Below the pieces are notes generated by a model, which was not told the origin of the DNA, ran no database searches, and saw nothing but the letters and a program-made list of their open reading frames with translations. From positions 1 to 43,492 of the forward strand of contig ONCC01000018.1 of assembly GCA_900316235.1 (NCBI GenBank): a stretch of 43,492 bases of DNA, in the 5' to 3' direction. The DNA comes from an uncultured Bacteroidales bacterium (lineage in GTDB: Bacteria; Bacteroidota; Bacteroidia; Bacteroidales; P3). Position numbers and translations under genes: made by a program. Shown here piece after piece: positions 3,410 through 25,783 of this stretch (positions are counted from its first letter, which is position 1; the number at the start of each line of letters is the position of its first letter).

Positions 3410-3772
3410 ATGAAAGCACATCAGATGTATTACATGGATTGCCACCTGGCTGGCAGGAAGTATTATGATGCCGACATCGTATGGGATTACTTGCGTGTCG
3501 GTCAGAAACTTCGTTTGGAGCGCGAAACTGACAACCCTCACGATCCCTACGCTGTGCAGGTCGTCTACACCAAAGACGGGGAAGATTACCTGATAGGGTA
3601 CATTCCGAGAAACGAGAACCGCGACCTTGCGGGCATTCTTGAGATGGGTTGGACGGAGATGTTCGACTGCCGAATCTCCAGCATCAATCCCGACACGCAC
3701 CCCGAGAATCAGGTGAGACTCACGATCAGTATCAAGAGAGCTCCTGTTGCGACCACGAAAAGCCGCAAGTAA
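3410..3772 (+). CDS. HIRAN-domain protein
   Basis: A 120-residue protein that is almost entirely one HIRAN domain: YYMDCHLAGRKYYD at the start, the conserved ERETDNPHDPYAVQVV block near residues 38-54, and YLIGYIPRNEN near 62-73. HIRAN binds single-stranded DNA or 3' DNA ends and is otherwise found on Rad5/HLTF-type helicases or as small stand-alone bacterial proteins. There is no signal peptide. It is the first gene of a plus-strand operon. The leader contains an out-of-frame ATG CAA TGA at 3405-3413 that overlaps the true start, a possible two-codon upstream ORF. Its DNA partner is unknown. Confidence 0.85.
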   Translation: MKAHQMYYMDCHLAGRKYYDADIVWDYLRVGQKLRLERETDNPHDPYAVQVVYTKDGEDYLIGYIPRNENRDLAGILEMGWTEMFDCRISSINPDTHPENQVRLTISIKRAPVATTKSRK

Positions 3773-4475: not shown

Positions 4476-5567
4476 ATGTTAGGTGCGATCATAGGCGACA
4501 TCGTGGGGAGCCGGTGGGAGTTCAACCCTACCAACGACTACAACTTCGAGCTCTTCTCCAGTAAAAACAGTTTCACCGACGACACCATCTGTACAGTGGC
4601 GGTAGCCGATGCCATTCTGCACGGTAGCGAGGATTTCGGGAAGTATATCCACAGCTGGTGCCGCCGTTACCCGCACCCTATGGGCGGTTACGGGGGACGG
4701 TTTGCGCAATGGGTGAAGAGCGACCACCCCGAGCCCTACGGCAGTTGGGGCAACGGTTCCGCCATGAGGGTCAGTCCTGTGGCGTGGGCTTACAGCGACC
4801 GCTACAACGTCATGCGGCTTGCGGAGCTTACGGCTTCCTGTACCCACAACCATCCGCTGGGCATCAGCGGGGCGCAGGCGGTAGCACTCGCCATTCGCGA
4901 CTGCCGTCAGCTGCACCGCACGGGAATCTGTATCGGAGCCGACGAGGCGAAGAGGCACGGGTTGCAGGAGGCGATACGACACTTCGGCCGTTCGGTCGAC
5001 CTCAAGGAGGAGCGTGTGCAAAACAGATTCGATGAGACATGCGAGGGGACGGTACCGGTGGCTTTCTGGATCATCAACCAGAGTCGCTCGTTCGAGGATG
5101 CCATCCGTAGGGCGGTAAGTCTCGGAGCCGATGCCGACACCCTGGGGGCCATTGTGGGCAGCATTGCTGAAACCATCTGGGCGATACCCGAGTGGATGAA
5201 GAAGAAAGCACTCAGCTACCTGCCCGAAGAGATGCGCGATGTGGTGCGGGCTTTCCGCACGTATGTCCACTCTCACACGAAAAGCAGCGGGTGGGTGATA
5301 ATGAGCGACGAGGAGATAGAGGCTTTGGGAAACGACTTCGGGGTGGATGAGATGTCGAAAAAGCGCAACTTGATGACAGTGGCGCGTATCTGGCACGATG
5401 TGGGATGGTCGGACGCACGCACGGTGCCGGAAGAGATTGTCGACCCTTGTGTCACCTGTTGCCACCCAGGGGGAAACGGAGTGTGTAGATTCGGGAGCAG
5501 CAGCCGCAAAGCCCGTCGGCTGACTCATTGCCCGACGTATTTACCGGAACCGAAGTGGTTGCCGTAA
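4476..5567 (+). CDS. ADP-ribosylglycohydrolase family protein with Cys-rich extension
   Basis: 363 residues. Residues 1-~270 are an ADP-ribosylglycohydrolase (ARH/DraG-like) domain: GAIIGDIVGSRWE at the N-terminus, the Mg-binding FTDDT near residue 34, GNGSAMRVSP near 93, HNHPLGI near 117, and SLGADADTLGAIVGSIAE near 214 (the usual GGDADT becomes GADADT). The enzyme would remove ADP-ribose from proteins or nucleic acids in the cytoplasm. An extra ~90-residue tail (271-363) has CVTCC and a later C, GNGVCRFG and HCPTY, which may bind metal; I do not recognise it. Operon context links it to the HIRAN and SIMPL genes. An anti-toxin or anti-effector role is possible, but no ADP-ribosyltransferase is visible nearby. 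Confidence 0.9.
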   Translation: MLGAIIGDIVGSRWEFNPTNDYNFELFSSKNSFTDDTICTVAVADAILHGSEDFGKYIHSWCRRYPHPMGGYGGRFAQWVKSDHPEPYGSWGNGSAMRVSPVAWAYSDRYNVMRLAELTASCTHNHPLGISGAQAVALAIRDCRQLHRTGICIGADEAKRHGLQEAIRHFGRSVDLKEERVQNRFDETCEGTVPVAFWIINQSRSFEDAIRRAVSLGADADTLGAIVGSIAETIWAIPEWMKKKALSYLPEEMRDVVRAFRTYVHSHTKSSGWVIMSDEEIEALGNDFGVDEMSKKRNLMTVARIWHDVGWSDARTVPEEIVDPCVTCCHPGGNGVCRFGSSSRKARRLTHCPTYLPEPKWLP

Positions 5568-6648: not shown

Positions 6649-7833
6649 ATGGCTAATATACAGAAGAGGACCGAATTGCAATATGATATGCTACGGTCGG
6701 TGGTGGACACCATCAAGGCCGCCATACTGCAGAGCCAGGCTCGGGCGGCACAACTCGTCACCCAAGAGCAACTGGGGCTATATTATGGTATTGGCCGTTA
6801 TGTTTCGGAACACTCGCGGAAAGGCTATTGGGGTACCGGCGCGATAGAGAACATAAGCACGATGCTGAAGTCCGAATTGCCCGGTTTGAAAGGCTTCTCG
6901 GCAGAGAACATCAAGCTGATGCGCCGTTTTTACGAAGCTTGGAAAGACATCGAGGTCAATTCGGTAGCCGCGACTACCGAAATTTCAGAAAATGGTCAGC
7001 ATCAGCAGATTGCAAATTCGGTAGTCGAGACTACCGAATTGCAGCCAGCGGAATCAGAAACCATCCACCAACTGCAACTCACCAACGACGAGGCCTTTCC
7101 CGTAAGCGCCTTCTTAAACATCTCCTTCACTCATCATGTCACCATCTTCCGTAATGTCAAAAACTACGAGGAACGCAAATACTATATCCAGCAGGCTTAC
7201 CAGCAGCGGCTGACGGTCGATGATTTGGAGCGTCTAATTAAGTCGGATGCATACAAACATCAGAAAACCCTTCCTAACAACTTCCTTCAAACCATACCCG
7301 ACAAACAGATGGCGCTGCGTATGTTGAAGATGTTCAAAGACTCCTATTTGCTGGATTACATCAATGTGGAGGATATTGATGTATCTGACCCAGAGGATGT
7401 GGACGAGAGCGTGATTGAGAGCAAGATTGTGATGAACATCAAGAACTTCATTATGACCTTTGGCAAATCGTTCACCTACAAGGGGCATCAGGTTCATTAC
7501 GACAAATTGGGGCACGACCATTGGATTGACCTGTTGTTCTTCAACAGGGAATTGCAATCGTTGGTGGTTGTGGAATTGAAGAAAGGCCAGTTCAAACCCT
7601 CTTATCTAGGTCAGTTGGCTGCCTACCTGCGCATTCTTGACGACGACGAGAGGCTTCCCGGCGAGAACCCATCGGTAGGCATCATACTCTGCAAGAAAGC
7701 TGATAAGGCATATGTGGAGTATGTGTTGCAGGACTACCGCAAACCCATGGGCGTAGCCACCTACAGGCAGATGCAGGACCGCCTCCGAGAGCTGTTGCCA
7801 CCCGAAAAAGAAATACTGAAACTAATCCCGTAG
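6649..7833 (+). CDS. YhcG-family (DUF1016) PD-(D/E)xK nuclease-domain protein
   Basis: 394 residues. An N-terminal DUF1016 helical region is at about 10-105 (LGLYYGIGRYVSEHSRKGYWG, LKGFSAENIKLMRRFYEAW). Then comes a polar linker (about 106-145). The C-terminal DUF1016 nuclease-like domain (about 155-385) has FLQTIP, HDHWIDLLFF and VVVELKKGQFKPSYLGQL, which fit the D...ExK core of PD-(D/E)xK enzymes near residues 290-310. YhcG proteins are predicted endonucleases often found beside restriction-modification genes, as here. The linker is encoded by two DNA palindromes (6958-7040). It has its own promoter; no partner gene is close enough to be certain of co-transcription. Confidence 0.92.
   Translation: MANIQKRTELQYDMLRSVVDTIKAAILQSQARAAQLVTQEQLGLYYGIGRYVSEHSRKGYWGTGAIENISTMLKSELPGLKGFSAENIKLMRRFYEAWKDIEVNSVAATTEISENGQHQQIANSVVETTELQPAESETIHQLQLTNDEAFPVSAFLNISFTHHVTIFRNVKNYEERKYYIQQAYQQRLTVDDLERLIKSDAYKHQKTLPNNFLQTIPDKQMALRMLKMFKDSYLLDYINVEDIDVSDPEDVDESVIESKIVMNIKNFIMTFGKSFTYKGHQVHYDKLGHDHWIDLLFFNRELQSLVVVELKKGQFKPSYLGQLAAYLRILDDDERLPGENPSVGIILCKKADKAYVEYVLQDYRKPMGVATYRQMQDRLRELLPPEKEILKLIP
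6958..7040. repeat. Two palindromes inside the YhcG-like coding sequence
   Basis: AATTCGGTAG and CTACCGAA arms occur twice: imperfectly at 6958-6983, and as a perfect 12-bp arm palindrome with a 2-base centre at 7015-7040. Both are translated in frame into similar peptides (NSVAATTEI, NSVVETTEL) within the interdomain linker. They look like a small repeat that duplicated or inserted at a tolerant site. Confidence 0.85.
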
Positions 7834-8192: not shown

Positions 8193-11100
8193 ATGAGCAC
8201 CAAGTTTTTCAATAATATCGAGACGACGCTGATGGACAAGTTCCACGGCATCGCCACCAATATGGCCAACTTCGACATCTTCCACGCCGTTGTTGGCTAT
8301 TTTCGTTCCAGCGGCTACTTCAAGTTGCGCAAAGAATTGGATCACGTCCAAGAGATTCGCATCCTTGTCGGCATCAATATCGACAATATCTTCCGTCAGT
8401 CACAAGCGGCTGGCAAACTCTTTTTCGGTGACAAAGAGGTGAGTTTGGAGCAATATTGCGAGGATTTCCTCAACGATGTCTATCAGTCGGAATACTCATC
8501 GGAAGTGGATGAAGGCATCCGACAGTTCTGCACCGATGTGTCGGAAGGTCGCCTGCAACTTCGCATCCACCCCACTAAAGACCTCCACGCAAAGTTCTAT
8601 CTCTGTCTGCCGCAAAATCACAGCGAACACAGCGACGGTTGGGTCATCATGGGCAGCAGCAACCTCAGCGCACAAGGACTCGGCACCACCGAGCCACCCC
8701 GCTACGAGCTCAATGTGGCCATGAAGGATTACGACGATGTGCATTACTGTGAGGAACAGTTCCAAGAGCTTTGGAACGATGCCATTCCGGTAACGCTGGA
8801 CGATGTGAACCAAATCGTGGGGAAGACCCATCTGGCTCCCGAAGAACATCAGCCGACTCCCTACGAGCTTTATATGCGGATGCTTATCGACCATTTCGGC
8901 AACCAGGTAGAAGACGATTTCATTCCGCAACTCCCCGACAATTACGACAACCTTACCTACCAGCGCGATGCTGTGGTGCAGGGTTACGATATTATGATGC
9001 AGCACGGTGGATGTTTCATTGCCGATGTGGTGGGTTTGGGCAAAACGGTGGTGGCCGCTATGATTGCCCAGCGGTTCATCGCCGCCAATGGCGACAACAC
9101 CCGCATCCTCGTCATCTTCCCTCCTGCGGTGAAAAGTAACTGGGAGGAAACATTCAGAGATTTTGGCATCAAGAACAAGTACAGTCGTTTTATCACCAAC
9201 GGAAGCCTTGATAAAATCATCGATGGTGACGGTTACGATGAAAAGGAATACTACGACCTTATCATTGTTGATGAGGCCCATAACTTTCGTCACGACAGCA
9301 ACGGCAACTACGACCTGTTGCAACGCATCTGCAAATCGGCTCGTCTCAACAAGGGCAATGTGAAGGGAGGCAAACGTGTGCTACTGCTTTCGGCAACTCC
9401 GCTCAACAACACCCCTGAGGATATCAAGAACCAGCTGCTGCTGTTCCAAGATACCGCCCGCTGCACACTTGATGGTATTGGAAACATAGCCGACACCTTC
9501 GCCCCATGGATAAAGGAGTTCAAGAGCCTCATGTCGCAACGTCGTACCTTGAGTGCCGAACACCTTACCAGTCGAATCGATGCCATCAACCAGGAGTTAC
9601 GTCACAAGGTATTGGAGAAGGTGATGGTGCGCCGCACACGAAGCAATATTCAGCACGAACCCCGTTATGCCAATGAGATTCATTTCCCGCAGTTGCTCGA
9701 CCCCACCGACCGCACCTACCAGATGTCGCCCGATGTGCTGATGCTCTTCGTCGACACCTATAAGAAACTGGTTGATACTCCCACCGCCAATCTGAAAGAA
9801 GAGAATCCCGATATGTTCGACGGCAGCGGCTTGCATTATGCCCGTTACCGTGCTGTGGAGTATTGCCCCTCATACAAAGTGCCCTCTGGACGAAAAGCCA
9901 AACAGGTGGCCGACTCGCTGGCATCCATCTACCAAACCCACATGGTCAAACGTCTGGAGAGTAGTTTCGATGCCTTCCGTCGCTCGTTGCACACCCTTCT
10001 CGATGCCACCGAGGGTATGATAAAGATGTTCGAGGAGGACAAGGTTATCATTGCCCCCGAACTGAACGTGAAGAAATTGCAAGCCGATGGGTTGGAGTTG
10101 GACGAGATTATCGAGATAGCCATTGGCAAGGGTTTCGACCAAAACGAGATTACCTTCCGTGCTGCCGACTTCAAGCCCGATTTTCTGCCTATGCTTAGGT
10201 ACGATGCTGATGTGCTGAAGAAACTGTGCAAACGGTGGGAGGCGGTCAAATCCGACCCCAAGTTGGATCTCTTCGTCGATATGCTGCAGGACGAGCTTTT
10301 TGACAAGAAAAAGAATCTGGAAGGCAAGTTGGTAGTGTTTAGCGAAAGTGTGGATACCGTCAACTATCTGGAGAAAAACTTGAAAGAGCGTCTGCATCGT
10401 AACGATATCCTCGCGGTGTGTGCCAAAAACCGCAACCGCCTGCGTGACACGATACGTGCCAATTTCGATGCCAAATACAAAGAAGAATGGCGCAACGACT
10501 ACAACATCATCATCACCTCCGACGTGTTGGCTGAAGGTGTCAACCTGCATCGCGCAAATATCATCGTCAACTACGACAGCCCTTGGAACGCCACCCGTCT
10601 GATGCAACGCATAGGTCGTGTGAACCGTATCGGTTCCACAGCCGATGCCATCTACAACTATATGTTCTACCCGTCAGATCCTGGTGACGCCATCATCAGT
10701 CTCAAGAAGAATTCCCTTATCAAGCTGCAGAGTTTCCATTCCGCCCTCGGTGAGGACACCAAGATTTACTCGCACGAAGAGATGGTGCATGAGTTCAAAC
10801 TCTTCAATGCCGATGTGCGCGACGAAACCGACCGCAGTTTGGAACTGCTGCGCGAAGTGCGTCACCTTCACGACATTGACCCCACCCGCTACCGCCACAT
10901 CAAGCAACTTCCTCCCAAGAGCCGCTGCGCCCGCCAAAGTACGCAGACATCCCCCTCGGCACAGACGATTTCTTATCTAGCTTCACCCCTAAAGAAAGCC
11001 TTCTATCTCGTTGGTGCCGACATCAGGGAACTATCCTTCCTTGAGGCAGCCGACATCTTCTATGCTAAACCCGACGAGAAAGCAGTTCCTTTCGGTGAAT

Positions 11101-11501
11101 GTGAGCAACTTCATTACGAGCAGGTACAGACAGCGTTGAAACAATACACCCTCGACCAGCAGAAAGAGCATCAGGAGGATAAACCCAAGATTGGCAGCAA
11201 AGACAACGATGCAAAGAAGGCTGCCGCTTTCCTGCGTGAGGTGCGTCCGATGCTGGACGACGAAGGTCGTCGTACTGCCGACCGACTGAAACAGCTGGTG
11301 GAGCGTGGCACCTACAACCAGTTGGCTGATGCGCTTATCCGAATTTCGAAAAAACAGAAGAAGGAGCCTGCTCCTCTCGTCAAGATTGTGGAGCAACTCG
11401 AAGAGCTGGACAATCGCTACAGCCAGCCGCAGATTTCGACCTTCACCAAGCAGGTGGCGCTCACCAGTGCAGATATTATTCTTTCCGAAACCTTCAAATA
11501 A
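8193..11501 (+). CDS. PLD-like nuclease / SNF2-type helicase fusion
   Basis: 1102 residues. The N-terminal ~250 residues contain a phospholipase D-like motif near residue 132 (HAKFY, then WVIMGSSNLSAQGL). A superfamily 2 SNF2-like helicase follows: Q-type LTYQRDAV near 253, Walker A DVVGLGKTVVAAM near 276, DEAH box IIVDEAHNFRH near 355, SATPLNN near 398, and motifs V-VI SDVLAEGVNLHRA and RLMQRIGRVNRIG near 775-810. The C-terminal ~250 residues are unassigned. It would translocate on DNA and may cut it. It forms an operon with the methylase 9 bases downstream. The pairing recalls DISARM and other helicase-methylase defence loci, but I cannot match it to a named type. Start chosen at the first good ATG. 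Confidence 0.92.
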   Translation: MSTKFFNNIETTLMDKFHGIATNMANFDIFHAVVGYFRSSGYFKLRKELDHVQEIRILVGINIDNIFRQSQAAGKLFFGDKEVSLEQYCEDFLNDVYQSEYSSEVDEGIRQFCTDVSEGRLQLRIHPTKDLHAKFYLCLPQNHSEHSDGWVIMGSSNLSAQGLGTTEPPRYELNVAMKDYDDVHYCEEQFQELWNDAIPVTLDDVNQIVGKTHLAPEEHQPTPYELYMRMLIDHFGNQVEDDFIPQLPDNYDNLTYQRDAVVQGYDIMMQHGGCFIADVVGLGKTVVAAMIAQRFIAANGDNTRILVIFPPAVKSNWEETFRDFGIKNKYSRFITNGSLDKIIDGDGYDEKEYYDLIIVDEAHNFRHDSNGNYDLLQRICKSARLNKGNVKGGKRVLLLSATPLNNTPEDIKNQLLLFQDTARCTLDGIGNIADTFAPWIKEFKSLMSQRRTLSAEHLTSRIDAINQELRHKVLEKVMVRRTRSNIQHEPRYANEIHFPQLLDPTDRTYQMSPDVLMLFVDTYKKLVDTPTANLKEENPDMFDGSGLHYARYRAVEYCPSYKVPSGRKAKQVADSLASIYQTHMVKRLESSFDAFRRSLHTLLDATEGMIKMFEEDKVIIAPELNVKKLQADGLELDEIIEIAIGKGFDQNEITFRAADFKPDFLPMLRYDADVLKKLCKRWEAVKSDPKLDLFVDMLQDELFDKKKNLEGKLVVFSESVDTVNYLEKNLKERLHRNDILAVCAKNRNRLRDTIRANFDAKYKEEWRNDYNIIITSDVLAEGVNLHRANIIVNYDSPWNATRLMQRIGRVNRIGSTADAIYNYMFYPSDPGDAIISLKKNSLIKLQSFHSALGEDTKIYSHEEMVHEFKLFNADVRDETDRSLELLREVRHLHDIDPTRYRHIKQLPPKSRCARQSTQTSPSAQTISYLASPLKKAFYLVGADIRELSFLEAADIFYAKPDEKAVPFGECEQLHYEQVQTALKQYTLDQQKEHQEDKPKIGSKDNDAKKAAAFLREVRPMLDDEGRRTADRLKQLVERGTYNQLADALIRISKKQKKEPAPLVKIVEQLEELDNRYSQPQISTFTKQVALTSADIILSETFK

Positions 11502-11510
11502 GTCAACAAT

Positions 11511-14500
11511 ATGAATCCCGAAACCCTCCGCAAGATATTTCAATCGTCGTTCGACTACAAAACCTATAGCCAAGAGATTGTCCATCGTGTTTTCGGTTGC
11601 AACGATGTGGCTTCACGTCCGGAGTTGCTCGACACCAATGCCGAAGGCGACAAAAGCCATTTCATCGGTCAGATGGAGGACATCGATGGCCGTCTGCTCG
11701 GTTTCTTCTACACCCGTGTGGCCGATGGTGGCGATGTGCGTCGTAAACGCGTGGGACTTCGCAAATTGATTAGCCCTTATCTGAAATACGATGTCGACGG
11801 TGCTATTGCCATCTTCGACGATGGACACCATTGGCGACTGTCCTATATCTGCGACCTCAAGGAGGGTAACACTTCGGCCAAACGATTCTCCTACATTATG
11901 GGGGATGAGAAGGGCCAATACAAAACACCCCTTGAGCGACTGGAGAGGGTGGCCGAAATGAAAGGTCGCTACAAACTTTCCGACCTCCGTGAGGCCTTCT
12001 CGGTCGATGCCCTCAGCAAGGAGTTCTTCAACGAATACCACGACCATTACGACATTATCGTCGACGAGCTGAAACGGCAAGGTTTTGAGGGTGCCACCAT
12101 CCACGACTATGTGAAGAAGATGATGGGTCGTATCGTCTTCCTGCACTTTCTACAAAAGAAACGCTGGCTGGACAATAACCCTGCATTTCTGCGCGACCTA
12201 TTCTTCTTCAGCCCTCACCAATCCGACTTCCTAGAACAGGTGTTGGAGCCCCTATTCTTTGGCATCTTCAACACCGAAAGCGACCAGCGAGAGAATCTGT
12301 TTACCAATGAGCATTGGGATAAAGGCTTGTTGAAACAATGGGTGAAATTACCCTACTTGAACGGAGGCTTGTTCGAGAAAGACGAAGTGGATAAACAGAA
12401 GATTAAGTTACCAGCTTCGCTCTTTGAGGATTTGTTCTCCTTTATGGCATCCTACAACTTCACCGTCGACGAGAACGACCCCGATGATGCTGAGATTGGT
12501 GTTGACCCTGAGATGCTGGGCAAAATCTTCGAGTCGCTGCTGGAGGACAACAAGGCCAAAGGCGCCTTCTATACCCCAAAGGAGATTGTGCGCTATATGT
12601 GTAAAGAGAGCCTGATTGCCTACCTGTCGTCGCAAATAGGAAAATCTCAATCAGAACGAAAAGAACAAAAAGATGATTCTGATAGTTCTGATGGTTCTGG
12701 TTGCGATAAATTCATTCGTGCATTTGTCGAGAGCCACGAGATGCAACCTGCCCTAGAACCATACAGAGACATTATAGATAGGGCATTGCGAGAGGTAAAG
12801 ATCTGTGACCCTGCTATCGGTAGTGGAGCCTTCCCGATGGGATTGTTGAACGAATTGTGGCGTTGCCGCGAAGCACTCTGCGACAGCAGCACCCCCTCTA
12901 AGTTAGAGGGGGTGTCCGAAGGACGGGGGCGTGTGTCTTCCCGCGTTGACTTGAAGAAAGAAATCATTGAGAATAACATTTACGGAGTAGACATCGAAAA
13001 AGGTGCCATCGACATTGCTCGTCTCCGTTTTTGGCTCTCCATCGTTGTTGATGCAGACACTCCCGAACCCTTACCTAACTTCGACTACAAGTTTATGCAG
13101 GGGAATAGTCTTATTGAGGGTTATAATGGTTTTGACCTAAGTCGCATTTCGAACCGACTTCCGGGCGGACAAAGCAAGTCGATACAATTGGTACTTGGTC
13201 TTGATAGCGACTTGAGCAGAAAGAATCTTCAGCGTCTTATGCGTGATTATTTCTCTGTCACAGATCATAAGCGGAAGGCTAGTATGCGACAAGCTATCAA
13301 CGATGAAGTTAAACATCTAATAAGCGACAGTATCGGTGGTACACCAGCTGCGATGGCTAACCTTGAAAAACTTGATTGTTCATCCACTAAAGACTTTTTC
13401 CTTTGGCATACTTGGTTTAAAGACATTTTCGACAAAGGCGGTTTTGATATTGTTATTGGTAATCCTCCATACATACAACTGCAAGCCGATGGTGGGAAAT
13501 TGGGTGAATTATATAAGGATTGGGGATTCTATACATTTGCACGTACTGGTGACATATACAGCTTATTTTATGAACAAGGATGGAATATTCTTGCAAAAGG
13601 AGGCCACCTCTGCTATATCACATCAAATAAATGGATGCGTGCAGGATATGGAGAAAAGACTCGTGAATTTTTCACAACAAGGACAAATCCCATACTTTTG
13701 GTCGACCTTGGCGCTAATGTTTTTGAAAATGCAACTGTAGACACAAACATTCTGCTTTTTTCAAAGGCATCGAATCAAAAGGAAACATTGAGCGTTACTT
13801 TTACCGAAGATAGCTTAGAAAATTTGAGCGATTTCGTGCAGCAACAGGGATGTGTCTGCTCATTTTCAGGTAATGATAGCTGGGTAATACTTTCTCCCAT
13901 TGAACAGAGCATTAAAAGAAAGATAGAATCTGTTGGTGTTCCCTTGAAAGATTGGGATATACAGATAAACTATGGCATAAAGACAGGCTTCAACGATGCA
14001 TTTATCATAACCACCGAGAAGCGTGAAGAGATACTTGCCGCTTGTCGAGATGAAGATGAAAAAACTCGCACGGCTGAACTAATACGACCGATTTTGCGTG
14101 GCCGCGATATTAAACGTTATGGTTATGATTGGGCAGGATTATGGCTTATTGCCACCTTCCCCGCCAGACATTATGATATAGAGAAGTACCCTGCTGTAAA
14201 GGAATATTTGCTTTCCATCGGTATTGAAAAATTGGAACAAACAGGTAAAACACATATAGTAAACGGAGAAACAATCAAGGCTCGCAAAAAGACTAATAAT
14301 AAGTGGTTTGAGACACAAGATAGCATAAGCTATTGGGACGATTTTTATAAGCCAAAACTAATGTATGCTGATATTACACAGAAACTAAACTTTTGTTACT
14401 GTGAAGAGGTAATGTTTTGTAACAACACAACATATTTTATGACAGCAACAGACAGTTCTCTGCTCCCTCAAATAATGAAATATTTGAATTCTCCTTTAAT

Positions 14501-14663
14501 GGATTGGTACTATAGAACCATTTCTGTGCAATTGGGAGAAAGGGCGGTGAGAATGTTCTCTATATATGTCCTCAAAATACCCATTCCCAAAGAGCTTTCT
14601 GATAATATATATGAAGCGTATCATTTATCGAAAGAGGAAGTGGCCTTTATTGAGCATCAATGA
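11511..14663 (+). CDS. Eco57I-type adenine methylase with invertible C-terminal specificity region
   Basis: 1050 residues. The methyltransferase core has motif I DPAIGSGAFPMGLLNEL near 433, the GVDIEKGAIDIARLRFWLS block near 496, and motif IV IGNPPYIQL near 647, as in N6-adenine methylases of the Eco57I/PglX class. The N-terminal ~330 residues (RKIFQSSFDY..., HFLQKKRWL) resemble those of large BREX/type IIG-like methylases. Residues ~772-1050 are the target-recognition region (SDFVQQQG..., LIRPILRGRDIKRYGYDW, ending EVAFIEHQ). This region has a second, divergent version on the opposite strand (14647-15465) bounded by a 25-bp inverted repeat, so it can be swapped. From about 13430 the DNA is visibly richer in A and T than the upstream half. 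A palindromic repeat is inserted in frame at 12890. Confidence 0.93.
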   Translation: MNPETLRKIFQSSFDYKTYSQEIVHRVFGCNDVASRPELLDTNAEGDKSHFIGQMEDIDGRLLGFFYTRVADGGDVRRKRVGLRKLISPYLKYDVDGAIAIFDDGHHWRLSYICDLKEGNTSAKRFSYIMGDEKGQYKTPLERLERVAEMKGRYKLSDLREAFSVDALSKEFFNEYHDHYDIIVDELKRQGFEGATIHDYVKKMMGRIVFLHFLQKKRWLDNNPAFLRDLFFFSPHQSDFLEQVLEPLFFGIFNTESDQRENLFTNEHWDKGLLKQWVKLPYLNGGLFEKDEVDKQKIKLPASLFEDLFSFMASYNFTVDENDPDDAEIGVDPEMLGKIFESLLEDNKAKGAFYTPKEIVRYMCKESLIAYLSSQIGKSQSERKEQKDDSDSSDGSGCDKFIRAFVESHEMQPALEPYRDIIDRALREVKICDPAIGSGAFPMGLLNELWRCREALCDSSTPSKLEGVSEGRGRVSSRVDLKKEIIENNIYGVDIEKGAIDIARLRFWLSIVVDADTPEPLPNFDYKFMQGNSLIEGYNGFDLSRISNRLPGGQSKSIQLVLGLDSDLSRKNLQRLMRDYFSVTDHKRKASMRQAINDEVKHLISDSIGGTPAAMANLEKLDCSSTKDFFLWHTWFKDIFDKGGFDIVIGNPPYIQLQADGGKLGELYKDWGFYTFARTGDIYSLFYEQGWNILAKGGHLCYITSNKWMRAGYGEKTREFFTTRTNPILLVDLGANVFENATVDTNILLFSKASNQKETLSVTFTEDSLENLSDFVQQQGCVCSFSGNDSWVILSPIEQSIKRKIESVGVPLKDWDIQINYGIKTGFNDAFIITTEKREEILAACRDEDEKTRTAELIRPILRGRDIKRYGYDWAGLWLIATFPARHYDIEKYPAVKEYLLSIGIEKLEQTGKTHIVNGETIKARKKTNNKWFETQDSISYWDDFYKPKLMYADITQKLNFCYCEEVMFCNNTTYFMTATDSSLLPQIMKYLNSPLMDWYYRTISVQLGERAVRMFSIYVLKIPIPKELSDNIYEAYHLSKEEVAFIEHQ
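12890..12930 (+). repeat. REP-like palindrome inserted in frame in the methylase gene
   Basis: A perfect palindrome with 12-base arms (CACCCCCTCTAA / TTAGAGGGGGTG, one-base centre, 12890-12914) is followed by a GTCC-GAA-GGAC mini-hairpin and a G-rich tail. The unit reads like an intergenic REP element. It is translated as TPSKLEGVSEGRGR between motif I and the next methylase block, without breaking the frame. Confidence 0.8.
13825..13849 (+). repeat. Invertible segment boundary, copy 1
   Basis: Begins TGAGCGATTTCGTGCAGCAA and ends CAGGG, inside the methylase coding sequence (codons for SDFVQQQG). Identical in reverse complement to 15440-15464. Likely crossover site of the serine recombinase. 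Confidence 0.92.
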
Positions 14664-15465
14664 ATGCAATTTCCTGTGAAGATAAAGCATAGAATCTACT
14701 TAGGATGCTATCCACCTCGTCTTCTTTACATTGCAGATTACATTGATTTGGCATAGGGACTCGTATTTCCGCCATGAAATCAACACCTTTTCCTCCAGTA
14801 ACATTGGCAGAGGATAAAATAATGCGATTGAATATTTTGGAGTTGAGGTAGTTTAACAAATGCTGGAGATGTTTTCCTGTTATCATATATAGTTTGTTGT
14901 TTATCATCCAATCGGAAGGCACCATACATGCATCCATTTCTACCCCGATTTCTCTGTACACAATTTTTGGCTTAGATAAATCGTCCAAATAAGCGCAGTT
15001 ACGAAGGTTATATGGAGTATCTCCTTTATCGGCACGAGAGCTTATCTTATCCCAGTATTTGTCAAGGTGTTGCTTGACTGCAGGATAGTCATTTATATCA
15101 ATGCGAGGTATTCTCCCACGAACACCATTATGGGTATTAATAAGCCAGAGATTAGCCCAATCATACCCATACCTCTTGATGTCTCGGCCCCTAAGAATCG
15201 GTCGTATTAGTTCAGCCGTTCTCTTTCGCTCATCCTCTGTTTTGCAGTTACCCAGGATTTCGTCTCGCTTGGCTGTGTCAACAATAAAAGCTTCATTATA
15301 GCCAGTAAGTACACCTCTATAGATATTTATGTCCCAATCACGGAGTGGGGTACCAACAGCCTCGATTTTGCGTTTTATACTTTGTTCTATCGCTGACAAT
15401 ATTACCCAACTGTAATTTCCTGTGAACTGACAACGAGTCCCCTGTTGCTGCACGAAATCGCTCAT
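14647..15465 (-). CDS. Alternative (silent) target-recognition cassette of the methylase
   Basis: 272 codons, homologous along their whole length to methylase residues ~772-1050. SDFVQQQG, SWVILS-x-IEQSIKRKIE, RTAELIRPILRGRDIKRYGY and a final EIAFIDAQ are shared, while the centre (WLINTHNGVRGRI..., MDACMVPSDWMINNKLYMI) differs, as expected for a different DNA-target domain. It lacks any methylase core. After inversion it would be fused in frame to the methylase. Its ATG overlaps the recombinase stop (ATGA), so it could also be made as a separate polypeptide by translational coupling; which happens cannot be told from the sequence. It ends convergently with the methylase, overlapping by 17 bases. 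Confidence 0.9.
   Translation of the reverse strand: MSDFVQQQGTRCQFTGNYSWVILSAIEQSIKRKIEAVGTPLRDWDINIYRGVLTGYNEAFIVDTAKRDEILGNCKTEDERKRTAELIRPILRGRDIKRYGYDWANLWLINTHNGVRGRIPRIDINDYPAVKQHLDKYWDKISSRADKGDTPYNLRNCAYLDDLSKPKIVYREIGVEMDACMVPSDWMINNKLYMITGKHLQHLLNYLNSKIFNRIILSSANVTGGKGVDFMAEIRVPMPNQCNLQCKEDEVDSILSRFYALSSQEIAFIDAQ
15440..15464 (-). repeat. Invertible segment boundary, copy 2
   Basis: Exact reverse complement of 13825-13849. Its first three minus-strand bases are the TGA stop codon of the recombinase, so inversion would leave the recombinase reading frame complete in both orientations. Confidence 0.92.
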
Positions 15466-16076
15466 AATCCTTCCTCCAATTTTCTAATATCAATAAAACG
15501 TGCAAGTGTATTTCTGTCAACCTTACAGATTTTCGCTATTTTTCGATGAGAAGTTCCATTCTTTAGTAATTCGGAGATAAGCAACTCTTTCCCAGAAAGC
15601 TTATACTTATCAGGTGAACTTCTTCGCCCTTTGGGACGCCCCAATACAACGCCTTCTGCTTTCTTTCTCGCCAAAGCCTCTTTGGTCCTTTGGCTAATCA
15701 AATTACGCTCTATTTCTGCAGATAGACCGAATGCGAATGCTAGTACTTTGCTTTGAATGTCGTCACCAAGGCGATAGCTGTCCTTAATCGTCCATACACG
15801 ACACTCCTTTTTCATACAGAGACTCAATATCTCCATAATCATAAAAAGGCTACGTCCCAATCTTGAAAGTTCGGAACATATGATAATGTCATCCTTCTGC
15901 ACCTTGTTTAATAGCACACCCAGCCGTCGTTTGTCGTAGTTTTTTGTGCCGCTAATAGTTTCTTCTATCCAGCCATCGATAGAGATATCTTGATGCTGGC
16001 AAAAGTTGTTTATTTCAAACCGTTGGTTCTCCACCGTCTGTTTGTCGCTGCTAACTCTAATGTATCCGTAAATCAT
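15462..16076 (-). CDS. Serine recombinase (Hin/Pin-type DNA invertase)
   Basis: 204 residues, the normal size of small serine invertases. The catalytic domain runs to about residue 140: MIYGYIRVSSDKQ with the nucleophile Ser near residue 9, YDKRRLGVLLNKVQKDD near 48, SELSRLGRSL near 69, and the long E helix AFAFGLSAEIERNLISQRTKEALA near 113-136. GRPKGRR then leads into a C-terminal helix-turn-helix (GTSHRKIAKICKVDRNTLARFI). It catalyses site-specific recombination between short inverted sites. Its stop codon is the first base triplet of the 25-bp repeat that bounds the alternative methylase cassette, so this segment is its natural substrate. Low G+C like the cassette, suggesting they moved together. 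Confidence 0.95.
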   Translation of the reverse strand: MIYGYIRVSSDKQTVENQRFEINNFCQHQDISIDGWIEETISGTKNYDKRRLGVLLNKVQKDDIIICSELSRLGRSLFMIMEILSLCMKKECRVWTIKDSYRLGDDIQSKVLAFAFGLSAEIERNLISQRTKEALARKKAEGVVLGRPKGRRSSPDKYKLSGKELLISELLKNGTSHRKIAKICKVDRNTLARFIDIRKLEEGL

Positions 16077-16372: not shown

Positions 16373-16406
16373 CAACTTATATTCCGCCTTGTAAAATAAT
16401 CCCATA

Positions 16407-16444
16407 GTGTACCGCGTTGTGGTACACCGATAGGTGTATCTTTG
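16407..16444 (+). promoter_or_regulatory. Operator-promoter, copy 2
   Basis: GTGTACC-N7-GGTACAC (16407-16427), then TATCTTTG at 16437-16444, with the same spacing as copies 1 and 3. It precedes the 26-residue mini-ORF at 16481. Confidence 0.8.
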
Positions 16445-16480
16445 CAATCGGATTATTAACCTAAAAGAAAGGAGAAAAAA

Positions 16481-16561: not shown

Positions 16562-16596
16562 CGATAGTTGTCGAAAAACGCACGTCCATTTTTGCA

Positions 16597-16634
16597 GTGT
16601 ACCGCGTTGTGGTACACCTATAGGTGTATCTTTG
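16597..16634 (+). promoter_or_regulatory. Operator-promoter, copy 3
   Basis: GTGTACC-N7-GGTACAC (16597-16617) and TATCTTTG (16627-16634), nearly identical to copy 2 including the following CATCGGATTAT. This tandem duplication places a second controlled promoter before the 16725-18657 gene pair. Confidence 0.8.
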
Positions 16635-16643
16635 CATCGGATT

Positions 16644-18722: not shown

Positions 18723-18799
18723 TTTTCTATTGTCTTTGTGAGTGTTGAGAAATAATCTGAAAATAATCTGAGATTATTTACTCAGATTGACGGCTTGTC

Positions 18800-18807
18800 T
18801 ATCTTTG
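18800..18807 (+). promoter_or_regulatory. Promoter -7 box of the primase-helicase operon
   Basis: TATCTTTG followed by CATCGGATT, the same downstream text as operator-promoter copy 3, but without the TGTACC palindrome upstream. The leader to 18928 is about 115 bases with no evident ORF. Confidence 0.7.
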
Positions 18808-18927
18808 CATCGGATTTCCAAGGAAACCAAGAGACAATTGATTTATTAACCCGAGTGGAAGTGAGGAGGATGTTCTCGAGTAAATGGCCAAAGATTCCGA
18901 CCTTCTTCTCACAACACTTAAAAACAA

Positions 18928-22230: not shown

Positions 22231-22256
22231 GTGACACCGTGACAGCGTGACAGTTC
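22231..22256 (+). repeat. Iteron-like array, right copy
   Basis: Three GTGACA-type octamers, identical base for base and in the same orientation as 2167-2192, 20 kb away. The following 22257-22378 contains a CAGGTAATCA repeat and no gene. Confidence 0.85.
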
Positions 22257-22416
22257 GGAAATGAGAGCCACCTACCACGGGTGGCTCTTTGATTTTTCAG
22301 GTAATCATGTGAACAGGTAATCAGGTAATATAGTGAATTCTTTCCATCGGTAAAGCGGCATATTATGTGTTTTTATCAGATAGCCGAAAAAAACGGTAGA
22401 TTTGATTTGTTTTTAT

Positions 22417-22525
22417 GATAGCCGAAACGGTTTGTTTTCCCAAGGGCCGGAGGCAATCTTCCTCTCGCTGGCGCGACAGGGTGGGGGAAGCCCGCTGTGC
22501 CCGATACGCCGCGCGGAGGCTAAAC
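22417..22525 (-). repeat. Right copy of the ~110-bp inverted repeat
   Basis: Reverse-complement match of 433-544 (38 of 42 identical at the inner end). A further GATAGCCGAA copy lies at 22379. A 62-codon minus-strand ORF (22363-22551) runs through it but is probably a by-product of the repeat. From 22526 to 22911 I see no gene, only the short repeat at 22724-22755. Confidence 0.7.
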
Positions 22526-22723
22526 CCATGAAGCCCCTTGCGGGTCTCCATTGAAAAATTGTGCGTTTTGTTCTCCGCTGCGCTATCGGAGGTTCACAGG
22601 ACCTCCTTCACATACTTTTCCTCCCCCACACACGTATCCTCCCCGAGTGTGGGTCTTAAGTGGAAAGGAAGTTGACTCACTGCATTGTATTTTATTATTA
22701 AGGTGTTCGCAGGCATACCATGC

Positions 22724-22755
22724 TCGCTCCATTTAATTTGATTTCAGCGGTGCTC
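22724..22755 (-). repeat. Dispersed 31/32-bp repeat (second copy of 16304-16334)
   Basis: Shares TTTCAGCGGTGCTC exactly and about 28 of 31 positions overall with 16304-16334, with one single-base gap. Both read STAEI in the same minus-strand frame. Role unknown. Confidence 0.6.
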
Positions 22756-22911
22756 GCAGGCCGTGTCCCCTCTTTAGCAGCCAGAGAGGCAAGAGTTGGT
22801 TGTTGAGTAGCAGAGTTGTTGTCAATGTGGCATTTGTAGTAAATAGCAGTAGAAGAGCAAAGAAGCCGTAGTTGGTAAATAAGTATCGGGGCCAGGCAGA
22901 AGCCTCACATC

Positions 22912-23020
22912 GCCGATGATACTGTATCCTCGACTTGGCCCGATGTGTGGGAACTCATCGGGTCTCGGCTCGCAGATTCACTGAATCTGCTCATGTGTGG
23001 AAAAGTAAGTCGCCGCCCAT
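22912..23020 (+). pseudogene. Aberrant 5S rRNA 3' half with expanded helix IV region
   Basis: GCCGATGATACTG (22912-22924) corresponds to GCTGATGATACTG of the true 5S (349-361), and 22996-23020 is identical to its last 25 bases (370-394). Between these blocks the true 5S has 8 bases but this copy has about 71, containing two hairpins: CCCGATG/CATCGGG (22939-22962) and GCAGATTC/GAATCTGC (22972-22990). No 5S 5' half is visible upstream, so it cannot make a normal 5S. It is followed by its own terminator. It could be a decayed rRNA gene, a recombination scar, or part of a novel RNA. Confidence 0.75.
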
Positions 23021-23026
23021 CTTTTT

Positions 23027-23057
23027 AAAGGAGTTCCGATAAGGGACTCCTTTTTTT
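23027..23057 (+). terminator. Terminator after the 5S-like remnant
   Basis: GGAGTTCC and GGGACTCC pair (one G-U) around GATAA, followed by seven T. The layout matches the true rRNA terminator at 402-432, but the stem sequence differs. Confidence 0.85.
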
Positions 23058-23082
23058 GTTTTGTCGTTTGGGGTGATTTTTG

Positions 23083-23090
23083 TATCTTTG
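23083..23090 (+). promoter_or_regulatory. Promoter -7 box of a decayed gene
   Basis: TATCTTTG then CAAA and ATG at 23095. The start codon lies about where transcription should begin, so the message would be leaderless or nearly so. Confidence 0.6.
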
Positions 23091-23094
23091 CAAA

Positions 23095-23387
23095 ATGAAA
23101 ATGATTGTCAGGATGAGATATAAGCTGTTGATTATATGTGCGCTGATGGCTCGATGAGCTTCAGCGACAACACTTTTACCACTGACCAGTGGAATTCCAT
23201 GGAAGCTGCTGGCGCCATCTTCCTCCCTGCTGTCCACAATACGGGTGGTGAAGGACACTATTGGTCCTCTACTTCATCCAACGATACGGAGGCAAAGCGC
23301 TTCTACTTCAGTGTCAGCGAACTCTATACTACTAACTCTGAACCTAAAACCAACACCTGCTCTGTCCGTTTGGTGAGAAGCAATTGA
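23095..23387 (+). pseudogene. Decayed surface protein with a C-terminal FISUMP-like fragment
   Basis: Starting at the ATG at 23095, a signal-peptide-like MKMIVRMRYKLLIICALMAR is followed at once by a stop. In another frame, 23136-23387 encodes a fragment typical of the C-terminal end of Bacteroidetes FISUMP/DUF1566-like surface domains: WNSMEAAGAIFLPA, GHYWSSTSS, and CSVRLVR just before the stop. The two parts suggest a large internal deletion with a frameshift that joined the secretion signal to the domain's tail. The parent protein would have been an exported or lipid-anchored surface protein. A promoter is still present. Confidence 0.65.
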
Positions 23388-23417
23388 ATCTTTTTTAAAG
23401 AACTGGAGATAATTTCG

Positions 23418-23425
23418 TATTTTTG
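23418..23425 (+). promoter_or_regulatory. Promoter -7 box of the lipoprotein gene
   Basis: TATTTTTG followed by CAACG, 54 bases before the ATG at 23480. Confidence 0.7.
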
Positions 23426-23479
23426 CAACGATAATTGAATATTGAATAAATAGTACAAATATTTAAAAACTACATTATT

Positions 23480-23920
23480 ATGAAGAAATTTCTTTCTCTG
23501 GCCTTTCTCTCTGTGGCCATGATAGCTGCTGTCTCCTGCTCGAAAGATGACGACAAGAAGACAGATTCCCCCTCCATTAAGGGTACTCTATGGGAAGCCG
23601 ATGTGAATTATACCAACGTTCCGGTGCTTGGCTCGGGTACCCTCCAGCTGGAGCTCTTTTTCAAGAACGAGACTCTTTGCCGTGTGGATGCCGACCTTCC
23701 CGCGGGAATCCAGATGGCTTTGGCGGCTCTCGGTATTGGGAACCTCCAGCCGGGGGATTATCCCTACACCTTCGACGGCACGAAGGTGACGATTCAGATT
23801 GGCGGCAGTAACTTTGAACTCGACTATACGGGCAACACCCTTGTTTTTCACATCCCCGACCAGTACAGCGCTGTTGTTACTTACCTTGGGGGACCCGATG
23901 TGGTGTTCAACAAGCAATAA
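23480..23920 (+). CDS. Small lipoprotein with surface-export signal
   Basis: 146 residues. The signal peptide MKKFLSLAFLSVAMIAAVSC ends in a lipobox Cys at residue 20, followed by SKDDDKK. Acidic residues right after Ser-Lys are the pattern of Bacteroidetes lipoproteins exported to the cell surface. The mature part is a short beta-rich domain (KGTLWEADVNYTNVP, TLQLELFFKNETLCR, YPYTFDGTKVTIQIGG) like small lipocalin-type domains of unknown ligand. It is single in its transcription unit, with its own promoter and a shared terminator. Confidence 0.85.
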   Translation: MKKFLSLAFLSVAMIAAVSCSKDDDKKTDSPSIKGTLWEADVNYTNVPVLGSGTLQLELFFKNETLCRVDADLPAGIQMALAALGIGNLQPGDYPYTFDGTKVTIQIGGSNFELDYTGNTLVFHIPDQYSAVVTYLGGPDVVFNKQ

Positions 23921-23923
23921 CCT

Positions 23924-23958
23924 AAAAAAAGGCCGCAACGTCGTTGCGGCCTTTTTTT
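23924..23958. terminator. Bidirectional terminator between convergent genes
   Basis: GGCCGCAAC and GTTGCGGCC form a perfect nine-pair stem with a 3-base loop, flanked by A7 on one side and T8 on the other. It serves the lipoprotein gene and the minus-strand gene ending at 23958. Confidence 0.93.
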
Positions 23959-24728
23959 TATCTCTGTGTGGGGAACTGCGGTGTTGCTTTTAGGAATGCC
24001 TGGTAGTCGTCAATCATTCCTTTGTACATCTCTTTGCGGCTGTAGACGTTGTAGTTGGGGTGGTACTGCTTCACCACCAGCACATTGGCCTTGGGGGAAT
24101 AGAAGCAGTGGGGGTTGACCTGCTCGAGGTCGGAGTAGACGTGCTTCTGCAAAAAATCGACCATGATGCCCTGACCGCCGATGCAGAGGATGATATCGGT
24201 GTTGTACATGGTGATTTGTTCCTTCAGCAGGTCGGCGTAGTTGTCCATATATTTTTGGAGGACGGCATTGCTGGCGGCCTTCATGTCGGGCTGTTTCTTG
24301 CAGTTGATGCGGACGATGGGCGCGTTCTCATAGAATCCCTGCAGGCGCGTCGGCAAATCAGCCTTGTGGAAAGGTATCACCTTCCGCTCCGGAATGGTCA
24401 ATAGGCCGTAAGCCCACAACTCGAGGTTGGGGAAGAAGCGGAGGGCAGTGCGATTGGTGAGGCGTGGGGAGGGGACGCGGCCGCTTTCGGCGCGGAGATC
24501 CCAGCAGTCCTCTTCGTCGAGTTCCTTGGTAAGCACCATCAGACGCATGCCGGCGTCGTTCCATAGCTGTTCCTCGTTGGCGGGGCGGTGGACTTGGTTC
24601 AGGCCGTCCCACCAGATTTCTCCGCGGTAGAGGAGGCCGTCTTTGGCGATGAGGTCGGCGTCGTGGAGCTTGCGGGCACGCTGGGCCCACTTGGTGAAGA
24701 ATTTTTCTTCTCGGTCTTTGTAGGTCAT
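23958..24728 (-). CDS. Uncharacterised protein, possibly uracil-DNA-glycosylase-like fold
   Basis: 256 residues, soluble, no signal. It begins MTYKDREEKFFTKWAQRARK. Notable segments are GEIWWDGLNQVHRPANEEQLWNDAGMRL (split here as WWDGLNQVHRP and NDAGMRLMVLTKELD), IILCIGGQGIMVDFLQ near 200 and KANVLVVKQYHPNYN near 228. The arrangement of a buried strand with GG followed by a late HPNY/HPS-like segment faintly recalls uracil-DNA glycosylase-fold proteins, but the typical GQDPY-type motif is not visible. Treat the function as unknown. It has its own minus-strand promoter at 24778 and shares a terminator with the lipoprotein gene. Confidence 0.7.
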   Translation of the reverse strand: MTYKDREEKFFTKWAQRARKLHDADLIAKDGLLYRGEIWWDGLNQVHRPANEEQLWNDAGMRLMVLTKELDEEDCWDLRAESGRVPSPRLTNRTALRFFPNLELWAYGLLTIPERKVIPFHKADLPTRLQGFYENAPIVRINCKKQPDMKAASNAVLQKYMDNYADLLKEQITMYNTDIILCIGGQGIMVDFLQKHVYSDLEQVNPHCFYSPKANVLVVKQYHPNYNVYSRKEMYKGMIDDYQAFLKATPQFPTQR

Positions 24729-24777
24729 GATGATTCAGATAATAGTTTATAGATAAGATCTATAGTTTTTCAATTTG

Positions 24778-24785
24778 CAAAATTA
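24778..24785 (-). promoter_or_regulatory. Promoter -7 box, minus strand
   Basis: CAAAATTA is TAATTTTG on the minus strand, fitting TAnnTTTG, 50 bases before the start at 24728. Confidence 0.5.
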
Positions 24786-24894
24786 CGTTTTTTTTTGCAA
24801 ATGGCCAAAAATATTTTTTGGAGCACACTTTTTTTTGTGCTTCTGCGTTAATGAGATAAAGAAAAATGCAGGCGAGACGCCTGCGCACCCAAAG

Positions 24895-25566
24895 ATGAGG
24901 AGAAGATACATCCTGACGTTTTTTATGATGCTCATTGTGAGCTTCCCCGGGTTGCAGGCACAGTGGAAGGGGAGTTTGAGTGCGGGAGTGGCCTTTCCGG
25001 CGGGAGCCACAGGCAACGCCCCGAGGCTTTCGACGAGCTTCACGGCGGGCATTCGGGCGGTGTGGATTCCCGAGCGTATGCCGTTGGGATTGACGGCGAT
25101 GCTCGACGGGTTCCACTGGCTGAAGGGGGAGCACCCCGACCGCTCGGCAGTGCCGATGGACGAGGAGTTACACACCTTCCGCGCCCTTCATTTCCCGCTT
25201 ACCGTGGGACTTTGGATACCATTTGCTTCTTTGCATAATACGTTGAATGCGAGTGCATATATTGCCGTTGGTGGCTATTGGCGCAACATGACCTGCCAGC
25301 GGATGGCCGCACCCGGGGTGATGGACGACATGGAGGAGAGTGGATGGGGTGTGGCCTGGAAGGTGGGGATGGAGATAATCTATAATGATCGATTCAGCTT
25401 GGGTATCAGCTATCTTGCCTGTGGCAATCCCTTTGCTACTGGCGGCGACCCGTTGCCGGCCGGGACGGGCATGATAGAGAACGGCATCCGCCGTTCGCAA
25501 CCCTCCCTCGATGGCTACGGCCAGGGGTTCTTGTGTGTCATCCTAGGCTACTGGCTAACGAGATAG
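24895..25566 (+). CDS. Probable outer-membrane beta-barrel protein
   Basis: 223 residues from the ATG at 24895, chosen because it is immediately followed by a signal peptide (MRRRYILTFFMMLIVSFPGL, cut near LQAQ); the frame stays open for 40 codons upstream. The mature protein has alternating strands ending in aromatic or Gly turns (WKGSLSAGVAFPAG, FTAGIRAVWIPERM, ALHFPLTVGLWIPF, SAYIAVGGYWRNM, RFSLGISYLACG) and a last strand GFLCVILGYWL, as in small OmpW/OmpA-like barrels. No ligand can be inferred. Neighbours do not clarify its role. No clear -7 box is seen for it. Confidence 0.75.
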   Translation: MRRRYILTFFMMLIVSFPGLQAQWKGSLSAGVAFPAGATGNAPRLSTSFTAGIRAVWIPERMPLGLTAMLDGFHWLKGEHPDRSAVPMDEELHTFRALHFPLTVGLWIPFASLHNTLNASAYIAVGGYWRNMTCQRMAAPGVMDDMEESGWGVAWKVGMEIIYNDRFSLGISYLACGNPFATGGDPLPAGTGMIENGIRRSQPSLDGYGQGFLCVILGYWLTR

Positions 25567-25647
25567 TTTTCTGTTAATTTTTGTTAAAATTAAACCCAAA
25601 ACCTGACTTGGAAACACAAAAAATCGGGTTTGGGCTAAGTGGCTATA

Positions 25648-25719
25648 AACCAGTTATCAAGTCCCTACCAACTCCTAACCAACTCCTACCATGGTAGGAG
25701 TTGGTAGGGTGATGGTAGG
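25648..25719. repeat. Dispersed palindromic repeat, copy 1
   Basis: A 72-base unit with a perfect 28-bp palindrome at 25678-25705 (centre CCATGG) and GATGGTAGGGT tandem copies after it. A second copy with about seven differences is at 38157-38228. Both are intergenic. Confidence 0.85.
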
Positions 25720-25770
25720 GTGATGGTAGGGATTTTTTTGCTTGTTTGTAGAAGGATGAAATAATTTTTT

Positions 25771-25778
25771 TATCTTTG
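25771..25778 (+). promoter_or_regulatory. Promoter -7 box directly before an RNA methyltransferase start
   Basis: TATCTTTG, then only five bases to the GTG at 25784. Transcription would start at or next to the start codon, so a leaderless message is likely. Confidence 0.65.
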
Positions 25779-25783
25779 CAAGC

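Follow-up and report, generated by a model that had tools for sequence, protein, structure and literature searches.

In the invertible type I hsdS loci, such as SpnIII/PsrA of Streptococcus pneumoniae and the hsdS shufflons of Bacteroides fragilis, several inverted pairs together with a local recombinase shuffle modules of the specificity protein between genes; the B. fragilis shufflon has four sets of inverted repeats (PMC3090145). B. fragilis also has the invertase Mpi, which flips 13 regions, seven capsule promoters among them (PMC4747536). In Prevotella intermedia 17F, a type IIG locus consists of a methylase (22231-25584) with a SNF2/RAD54 helicase upstream, and of a convergent gene (25608-26525) of 918 base pairs (bp) that lies 23 bp from the methylase (PMC5608340). 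Here we analyse a 43,492-nucleotide stretch of DNA from an uncultured Bacteroidales bacterium (the window), which carries a type IIG-like adenine methylase, a second version of its predicted target-recognition domain (TRD) on the opposite strand, and a serine recombinase. It is very probable that positions 13825-15464 of the window form a three-tier shufflon, in which the adjacent Mpi-family recombinase likely inverts three nested pairs of sites and so swaps three modules of the predicted TRD.

The genes run along the window in the order PLD/SNF2 helicase, methylase, silent TRD cassette (minus strand) and recombinase (minus strand), with the stop codon of the recombinase and the ATG of the silent cassette overlapping as ATGA. 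The genes, sites and modules are as follows (aa, amino acids; ORF, open reading frame).

8193..11501 (+): PLD (HKD) nuclease-like and SNF2 helicase gene, 1102 aa (Pfam PLDc_2, SNF2-rel_dom and Helicase_C; best PADLOC match 'HKD+Snf2')
11511..14663 (+): Eco57I / type IIG-like adenine methylase, 1050 aa, the active frame, with TRD modules a-a-a (PF07669, PF12950, PF02384; PADLOC REase_MTase_IIG, 550 bits)
13825..13849 (+): site 1 (outer), left arm, 25 bp, perfect, core GAGC-GATT
13827..14132 (+): active TRD module 1 (a)
14070..14093 (+): site 2, left arm, 24 bp, perfect, core GACC-GATT; also a codon-identity peak in 23 loci
14133..14342 (+): active TRD module 2 (a)
14336..14344 (+): site 3, left arm, 9-bp core GGACGATTT, with a further common 10-mer at 14348-14357; also a codon-identity peak, with longer exact runs in some relatives
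14343..14660 (+): active TRD module 3 (a)
14647..15465 (-): silent TRD cassette b-b-b, a 272-aa ORF (TaqI_C alone in Pfam)
14979-14650 (-): silent TRD module 3 (b)
14978..14986 (-): site 3, right arm, with the further common 10-mer at 14965-14974
15156-14980 (-): silent TRD module 2 (b)
15196..15219 (-): site 2, right arm
15462-15157 (-): silent TRD module 1 (b)
15440..15464 (-): site 1, right arm
15462..16076 (-): serine recombinase of the Mpi 'master DNA invertase' family, 204 aa (Resolvase PF00239; NF009949; nearest PDB chains)

The outer pair had been recognised in a first-pass annotation of this DNA, which described a perfect 25-bp inverted repeat spanning the C-terminal region of the methylase and a homologous region on the other strand. 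The repeat is found at exactly the coordinates given there (13825-13849 / 15440-15464), with SDFVQQQG at its start in both frames, and both regions carry TaqI_C, the minus-strand ORF being a TRD alone. Of the perfect inverted repeats in the window with arms no closer than 50 bp and no farther than 5 kb, this one is the longest, and 60 simulated windows (second-order Markov) gave none above 18 bp. Within its own genome the 25-mer occurs at these two places only, even allowing 3 mismatches, and no exact copy was found in the viral contigs scanned. The common blocks SDFVQQQG, RGRDIKRYGYDW and a final AFI-x-x-Q (AFIEHQ / AFIDAQ) are also as described. The core between these blocks is divergent, as the annotation had it, but it is not one unit, since the site 2 and site 3 pairs cut it into modules; identity between a and b is 75% for module 1, 31% for module 2 and 35% for module 3. 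Site 1 encloses modules 1-3, site 2 modules 2-3, and site 3 module 3, and the locus thus has the layout of a shufflon: several inverted pairs, here three and nested, that yield alternative C-termini of one gene. When 13825-15464 is inverted in silico the reading frame is kept, as had been predicted, giving an open 1043-aa methylase and an intact 279-aa TRD ORF on the minus strand. The silent cassette in the window is likewise an intact ORF, free of the disabling mutations that would speak against a switch.

Inversion at site 1 would exchange all three TRD modules, inversion at site 2 modules 2 and 3, and inversion at site 3 module 3 alone, the other module set lying silent on the opposite strand. 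With the TRD cut into three modules there would be 2^3 = 8 possible enzymes, so that combinations of inversions could produce eight methylases from one gene. The same recombinase would cut at all three sites, and the modules would set different DNA targets.

Every combination of inversions was computed from the window DNA, giving seven rearranged enzymes besides a-a-a. Homologues were sought in a collection of 5.8 billion proteins clustered at 90%, using residues 560-1050 of the methylase as query and taking the best 120 of 7999 scored hits; a further search from one of these hits (P0018) was treated in the same way (best 120 of 7999). Four of the seven computed enzymes match database proteins letter for letter over their full length. 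The product of inversion at site 1 (1043 aa) is identical to P0018, that of site 2 to P0006, that of site 3 to P0004, and that of sites 2 and 3 together to P0003 (a-b-a). The first 772 residues of all four are those of the window methylase, with 0 mismatches. The clusters of P0018, P0006, P0004 and P0003 hold 1, 1, 1 and 6 sequences, on 2, 4, 1 and 15 contigs, where the other members of the P0003 cluster need not have exactly the P0003 form. None of the four is encoded by the window, and a search of its own genome found nothing beyond the a-a-a methylase, the b-b-b cassette and, on contig 55, a paralogue. Matching silent cassettes were found too. P0122 is a TRD-only protein of form b-a-b, 100/100/96% identical to the window modules and hence the complement of P0003. 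A more distant strain provides a full-length protein, P0005 (b-b-a, 85/97/88% to the window modules), and a TRD-only protein, P0165 (a-a-b, 96/94/85%). These two are probably the active and silent complements on one contig, because each lists 3 contigs of which the longest has 330479 bases.

The paralogue on contig 55 (39385-41640) is a second helicase-methylase pair, whose helicase is 89% and methylase core 73-76% identical to those of the window. The possibility that it is a second shufflon was dismissed: its TRD is unrelated, and there is no cassette or recombinase in the 12 kb read. Perhaps it is a fixed version of the same system.

Mixtures of modules are also found among wider homologues. 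Of 344 homologous proteins, 183 were parsed as full-length methylases, the remainder, TRD-only proteins among them, being left out. Taking as methylase core the 330 aa ahead of the TRD, there are 358 pairs (which are not independent of one another) with cores at least 96% identical; in 134 of these every module is at least 90% identical, and in 207 one module or more falls below 80%. The mixtures include 64 pairs that are high-high-low, 49 middle-high-high and 15 high-low-high. Module 1 is seldom less than 75% identical, because it is conserved. For the pair P0021/P0343, the core is 100% identical and the modules are 99/32/100%.

At the DNA level, a search of genome contigs with the recombinase gave 446 relatives, of which the best 80 were analysed. 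Among the resulting 81 loci (the window and 80 others), an inverted pair of at least 14 bp is present in 25, and both cassettes could be parsed in 23 (the window and 22 of the 80), some of them with a cut or broken active copy. Among residues on which the two cassettes of these 23 loci agree, the fraction with the same codon reaches 0.97-0.99 (site 1), 0.83-0.94 (site 2) and 0.75-0.94 (site 3). Off the sites it is 0.46-0.77 in the rest of module 1 and 0.67-0.81 from site 2 to module 2, with 0.18-0.67 inside module 2 and 0.20-0.70 inside module 3. The peaks of codon identity thus coincide with sites 1, 2 and 3, while recently homogenised tracts in some loci raise the value for module 1. The site cores were located by pattern in 24 loci: GAGC in 44 of 47 copies, GACC in 47 of 47, and GGAG or GGAC in 32 and 15 of 47, mostly with a T-rich stretch after them. 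The patterns partly define the letters found, and that for site 3 seems to have caught another spot in about six copies. Both copies within a locus share the 4-letter core in 22 of 23 loci for site 1, 23 of 23 for site 2 and 18 of 23 for site 3.

Two loci appear to be damaged by the process itself. In L114 (8603-12756), GGACAATTTT in the core of the methylase has become joined to site 3, which splits the gene: about residues 1-240 of the methylase are fused to module 3, with the rest on the other strand. A hybrid of site 1 and site 2 is also present. It seems that an inversion went wrong here, with site 3 recombining with a similar sequence in the core of the methylase. From the few joints of L114 we propose that the exchange point lies left of the fifth core base, with AG, AC and GA as the central dinucleotides of sites 1, 2 and 3. 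L075 (8594-13598) is an enlarged shufflon, with extra partial cassettes that begin at sites 2 and 3. We read both loci as wrecks of shufflon activity.

The recombinase scores 340.7 bits against the Mpi 'master DNA invertase' model NF009949, above the curated cut-off of 272, and its nearest PDB chains, 4m6f and 3uj3, are both annotated as 'DNA-invertase', followed by gamma-delta resolvase. On this similarity, it is likely to be the enzyme that inverts the segment. Its 80 analysed relatives are mostly from Bacteroidota, with one from Parasutterella (Pseudomonadota), one from a metagenome-assembled genome labelled Fibrobacteraceae, and two without a phylum. The locus of Parasutterella muris (L134) has the complete layout and a 119-bp inverted repeat outside Bacteroidota, which suggests either inter-phylum transfer or contamination. 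A TRD or methylase match, fragments counted, lies within 4 kb of the recombinase in 57 of the 80 loci; another 12 have no such match, but a contig end lies 300 bp or less from the recombinase. A search of the genus found matches to the recombinase in 28 of 120 genomes (its own included). Five genomes besides its own have it at 80-93% identity, and in 4 of these 5 the 3' end lies no more than 170 bp from a contig end. Among the 80 loci the 3' end, which is the side that faces site 1, is 300 bp or less from a contig end in 25, and the 5' end in 1 of 80, while a contig end lies within 1 kb on the 3' side in 33 of 80 and on the 5' side in 3 of 80. Such ends speak for inversion at the locus, although either repeats or mixed populations can produce them. 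Viral contigs contain 39 loci with relatives of the recombinase, and there is a 19-mer match in L166. In two further loci, L115 and L148, the recombinase has no methylase and lies beside short ORFs, which in L115 have similar starts (MERKNYSKPFM, MKKKTYAKPFF) on both strands; these ORFs are perhaps another kind of invertible target.

Published methylomes fit the shufflon reading. Strain 17F of P. intermedia has the motifs GGNYAG, CCNYAG and GGYGAB; cloning of the type IIG methylase gave only GGYGAB, the convergent gene alone no motif, and both together again only GGYGAB (PMC5608340). The paper proposes that one of the genes or a combination of them is responsible, perhaps with the helicase (PMC5608340). 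Our own reading is that shuffling takes place in the native strain and is absent in the clones, which would explain the missing motifs. Rikenella microfusus DSM 15922 has a homologous system and three related motifs (PMC5608340). Our locus L126, from the same strain, combines the recombinase with two TRDs and an inverted repeat of 310 bp, and is presumed to be the homologue referred to in that paper. With three related motifs each, these two methylomes would agree with a shufflon.

It is necessary to ask whether a simpler process could account for these observations. The first-pass annotation proposed a two-state flip, in which the outer 25-bp repeat alone recombines and exchanges two whole TRDs. 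Much of this has stood: the target domain does appear to be exchangeable by inversion, with an invertase adjacent and a layout that recurs in Bacteroidales, and the outer repeat, the longest perfect one, has a flip product that is found exactly, as P0018. However, P0003, P0004 and P0006 have identical cores and mixed modules, and are the exact products predicted for sites 2 and 3, while codon identity peaks at sites 2 and 3 across species. With three nested pairs in place of two states, a flip of the outer repeat alone is very unlikely. Only slightly less improbable is that the mixtures are alleles, made as strains exchanged DNA through ordinary homologous recombination or gene conversion. Modules do differ between distant genomes as well, which implies horizontal exchange of modules over long times. 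Nevertheless, the four isoforms have no mismatch in the 772-aa core and no change inside any module, and the exact common tracts at the sites are only 25, 24 and 9 bp, which is short for RecA. Complementary silent cassettes exist as well (P0122; P0165), and a serine recombinase is adjacent in the relatives, these having been found through the recombinase.

The least probable of the alternatives, which we judge to be very remote, is that metagenome assembly created the isoforms as chimeras, by jumping between short repeats. Misjoins at repeats of 24-25 bp can occur, and P0004 rests on one contig, yet both P0004 and P0003 need the site 3 junction, where only 9 bp are common in the window, below usual k-mers; and 4 contigs stand behind the single sequence of P0006, and 2 behind P0018.

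Several observations weigh against the three-tier shufflon. Site 3 in the window consists of the 9-bp core and a 10-bp match, and nothing longer. The rearranged isoforms are known as protein sequences alone, their four entries carrying no source label, and three of the seven computed isoforms, which begin with module b and have an a further on, have no full-length match among the best 120 of 7999 hits of each search, where clustering at 90% may hide them. One base differs in the core region between the two site 2 copies of L105, in L075 the frame of the methylase ends at site 2, and in the R. microfusus draft (L126) the frame is broken after module 1. Contig ends near the recombinase can also be produced by long repeats without inversion. 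Finally, 11 of the 80 recombinase loci have neither a TRD nor a methylase nearby, and in a tree of the recombinases the methylase-linked and unlinked labels do not cluster, so the recombinase is not strictly tied to the methylase as its target; by analogy with Mpi, the 11 unlinked enzymes may serve other targets.

A more far-reaching proposal can be made, which we regard as a possibility somewhat less likely to be right than wrong. This is that the locus embodies a combinatorial code, in which one Mpi-type recombinase acts on three pairs kept separate by the cores GAGC, GACC and GGA[C/G], and the modules are swapped independently, each reading its own part of the target, like GG/CC and NYAG/YGAB in P. 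intermedia 17F. Across Bacteroidales, the specificities of each such locus would then be predictable and could number as many as eight.

The methylase itself is type IIG-like. Its 1050-aa chain has an Eco57I-type adenine methylase domain (PF07669, 136.2 bits against a cut-off of 25.3) and, in the same chain, a TRD (TaqI_C, PF12950, residues 860-1025). No nuclease family matches the chain in Pfam, the PLD domain being in the upstream helicase gene; the PADLOC type IIG models match it and are its best fit. The label 'PglX-like' used earlier holds only loosely, for a related adenine methylase, and fails on the models: the PglX model of BREX-1 (NF033452) gives 91.7 bits against a cut-off of 500. 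No family of PglX partners was above cut-off in an NCBIfam scan of nine window proteins, and on these cut-offs classification as BREX was rejected. DISARM was also rejected, the DrmD helicase model NF038317 giving 146.2 bits against a cut-off of 610. A Pfam scan of 18 window proteins found no HsdS domain, the TRD here being TaqI_C inside the methylase. Two AlphaFold models have a mean pLDDT of 70.1 and 66.1, with parts of modules 1 and 2 below 50, and are too weak for the module boundaries to be placed on the fold. A Foldseek search with the 70.1 model gave BrxX/PglX, CamA, MmeI and DrdV at low TM, the top matches being BrxX/PglX chains at a TM of about 0.3. A repeat element with a palindromic part (CCCTCTAAGTTAGAGGG...) lies in frame within the methylase gene at 12894-12929, with 3 more copies elsewhere in the genome, each with 2-3 mismatches.

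The helicase link described in the first-pass annotation is borne out by the PLD and SNF2/helicase gene directly upstream (8193-11501), which is the probable partner of the methylase. We infer that the two work together in restriction or exclusion, and that the target and the methylome of this system would switch within a population. Further upstream are genes for a YhcG/DUF1016 PD-(D/E)XK nuclease (PADLOC PDC-S02; 6649-7833), an ADP-ribosylglycohydrolase (4476-5567) and a HIRAN-domain protein (3410-3772), which are possibly part of a wider defence island. On the other side of the shufflon, a 41-bp direct repeat (16406-16446 / 16596-16636, 98% identical, spacing 190 bp, part of it again at 18797-18816) combines a palindromic GTGTACC...GGTACAC block with a Bacteroides-like TAnnTTTG promoter motif ahead of short ORFs, and looks like a common operator/promoter for them.

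If the shufflon reading is correct, one methylase gene could aim at up to eight DNA targets, and a single genome among the common Bacteroidales would hold as many as eight methylase/restriction specificities within that gene. Within a clone, resistance to phages, uptake of DNA and the methylome would then vary, and methylomes with several related, unassigned motifs, such as those of P. intermedia 17F and R. microfusus, would be explained. The locus would also be a natural module-swap set for reading the module-to-motif code of type IIG enzymes, a long-standing aim in specificity engineering. The literature searched, which omits most subscription papers and was judged from titles, the starts of abstracts and passages, contains no account of a three-site inversion of a type IIG TRD.

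Among families newly found with gene-altering inversions, type II restriction-modification was reportedly listed by Milman, Yelin and Kishony in 2023. BREX PglX is a related adenine methylase that also has its specificity in the chain, and an inverted duplicate of pglX is said to have been described in BREX by Goldfarb in 2015; the window methylase differs from it in falling far below the cut-off of the PglX models. The recombinase is of the same family as Mpi of B. fragilis (above the cut-off of NF009949), but unlike that of Mpi its gene abuts a coding shufflon. Pin17FIII of P. intermedia 17F shares with the window a SNF2 helicase and a type IIG methylase, followed at a distance of 23 bp by a convergent gene that we read as a TRD cassette (PMC5608340); the comparison is with the published description, and the passages of PMC5608340 that describe the system propose no inversion. 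Compared with the type I hsdS loci, the modules here lie within the methylase chain (Eco57I/TaqI_C), three per TRD, and not in a separate HsdS, and the recombinase is a small serine invertase where those loci have tyrosine recombinases (PMC3090145 and, for the rest, reportedly). Invertible specificity is already established for type I HsdS, and it is the nested three-module type IIG form that appears to be new.

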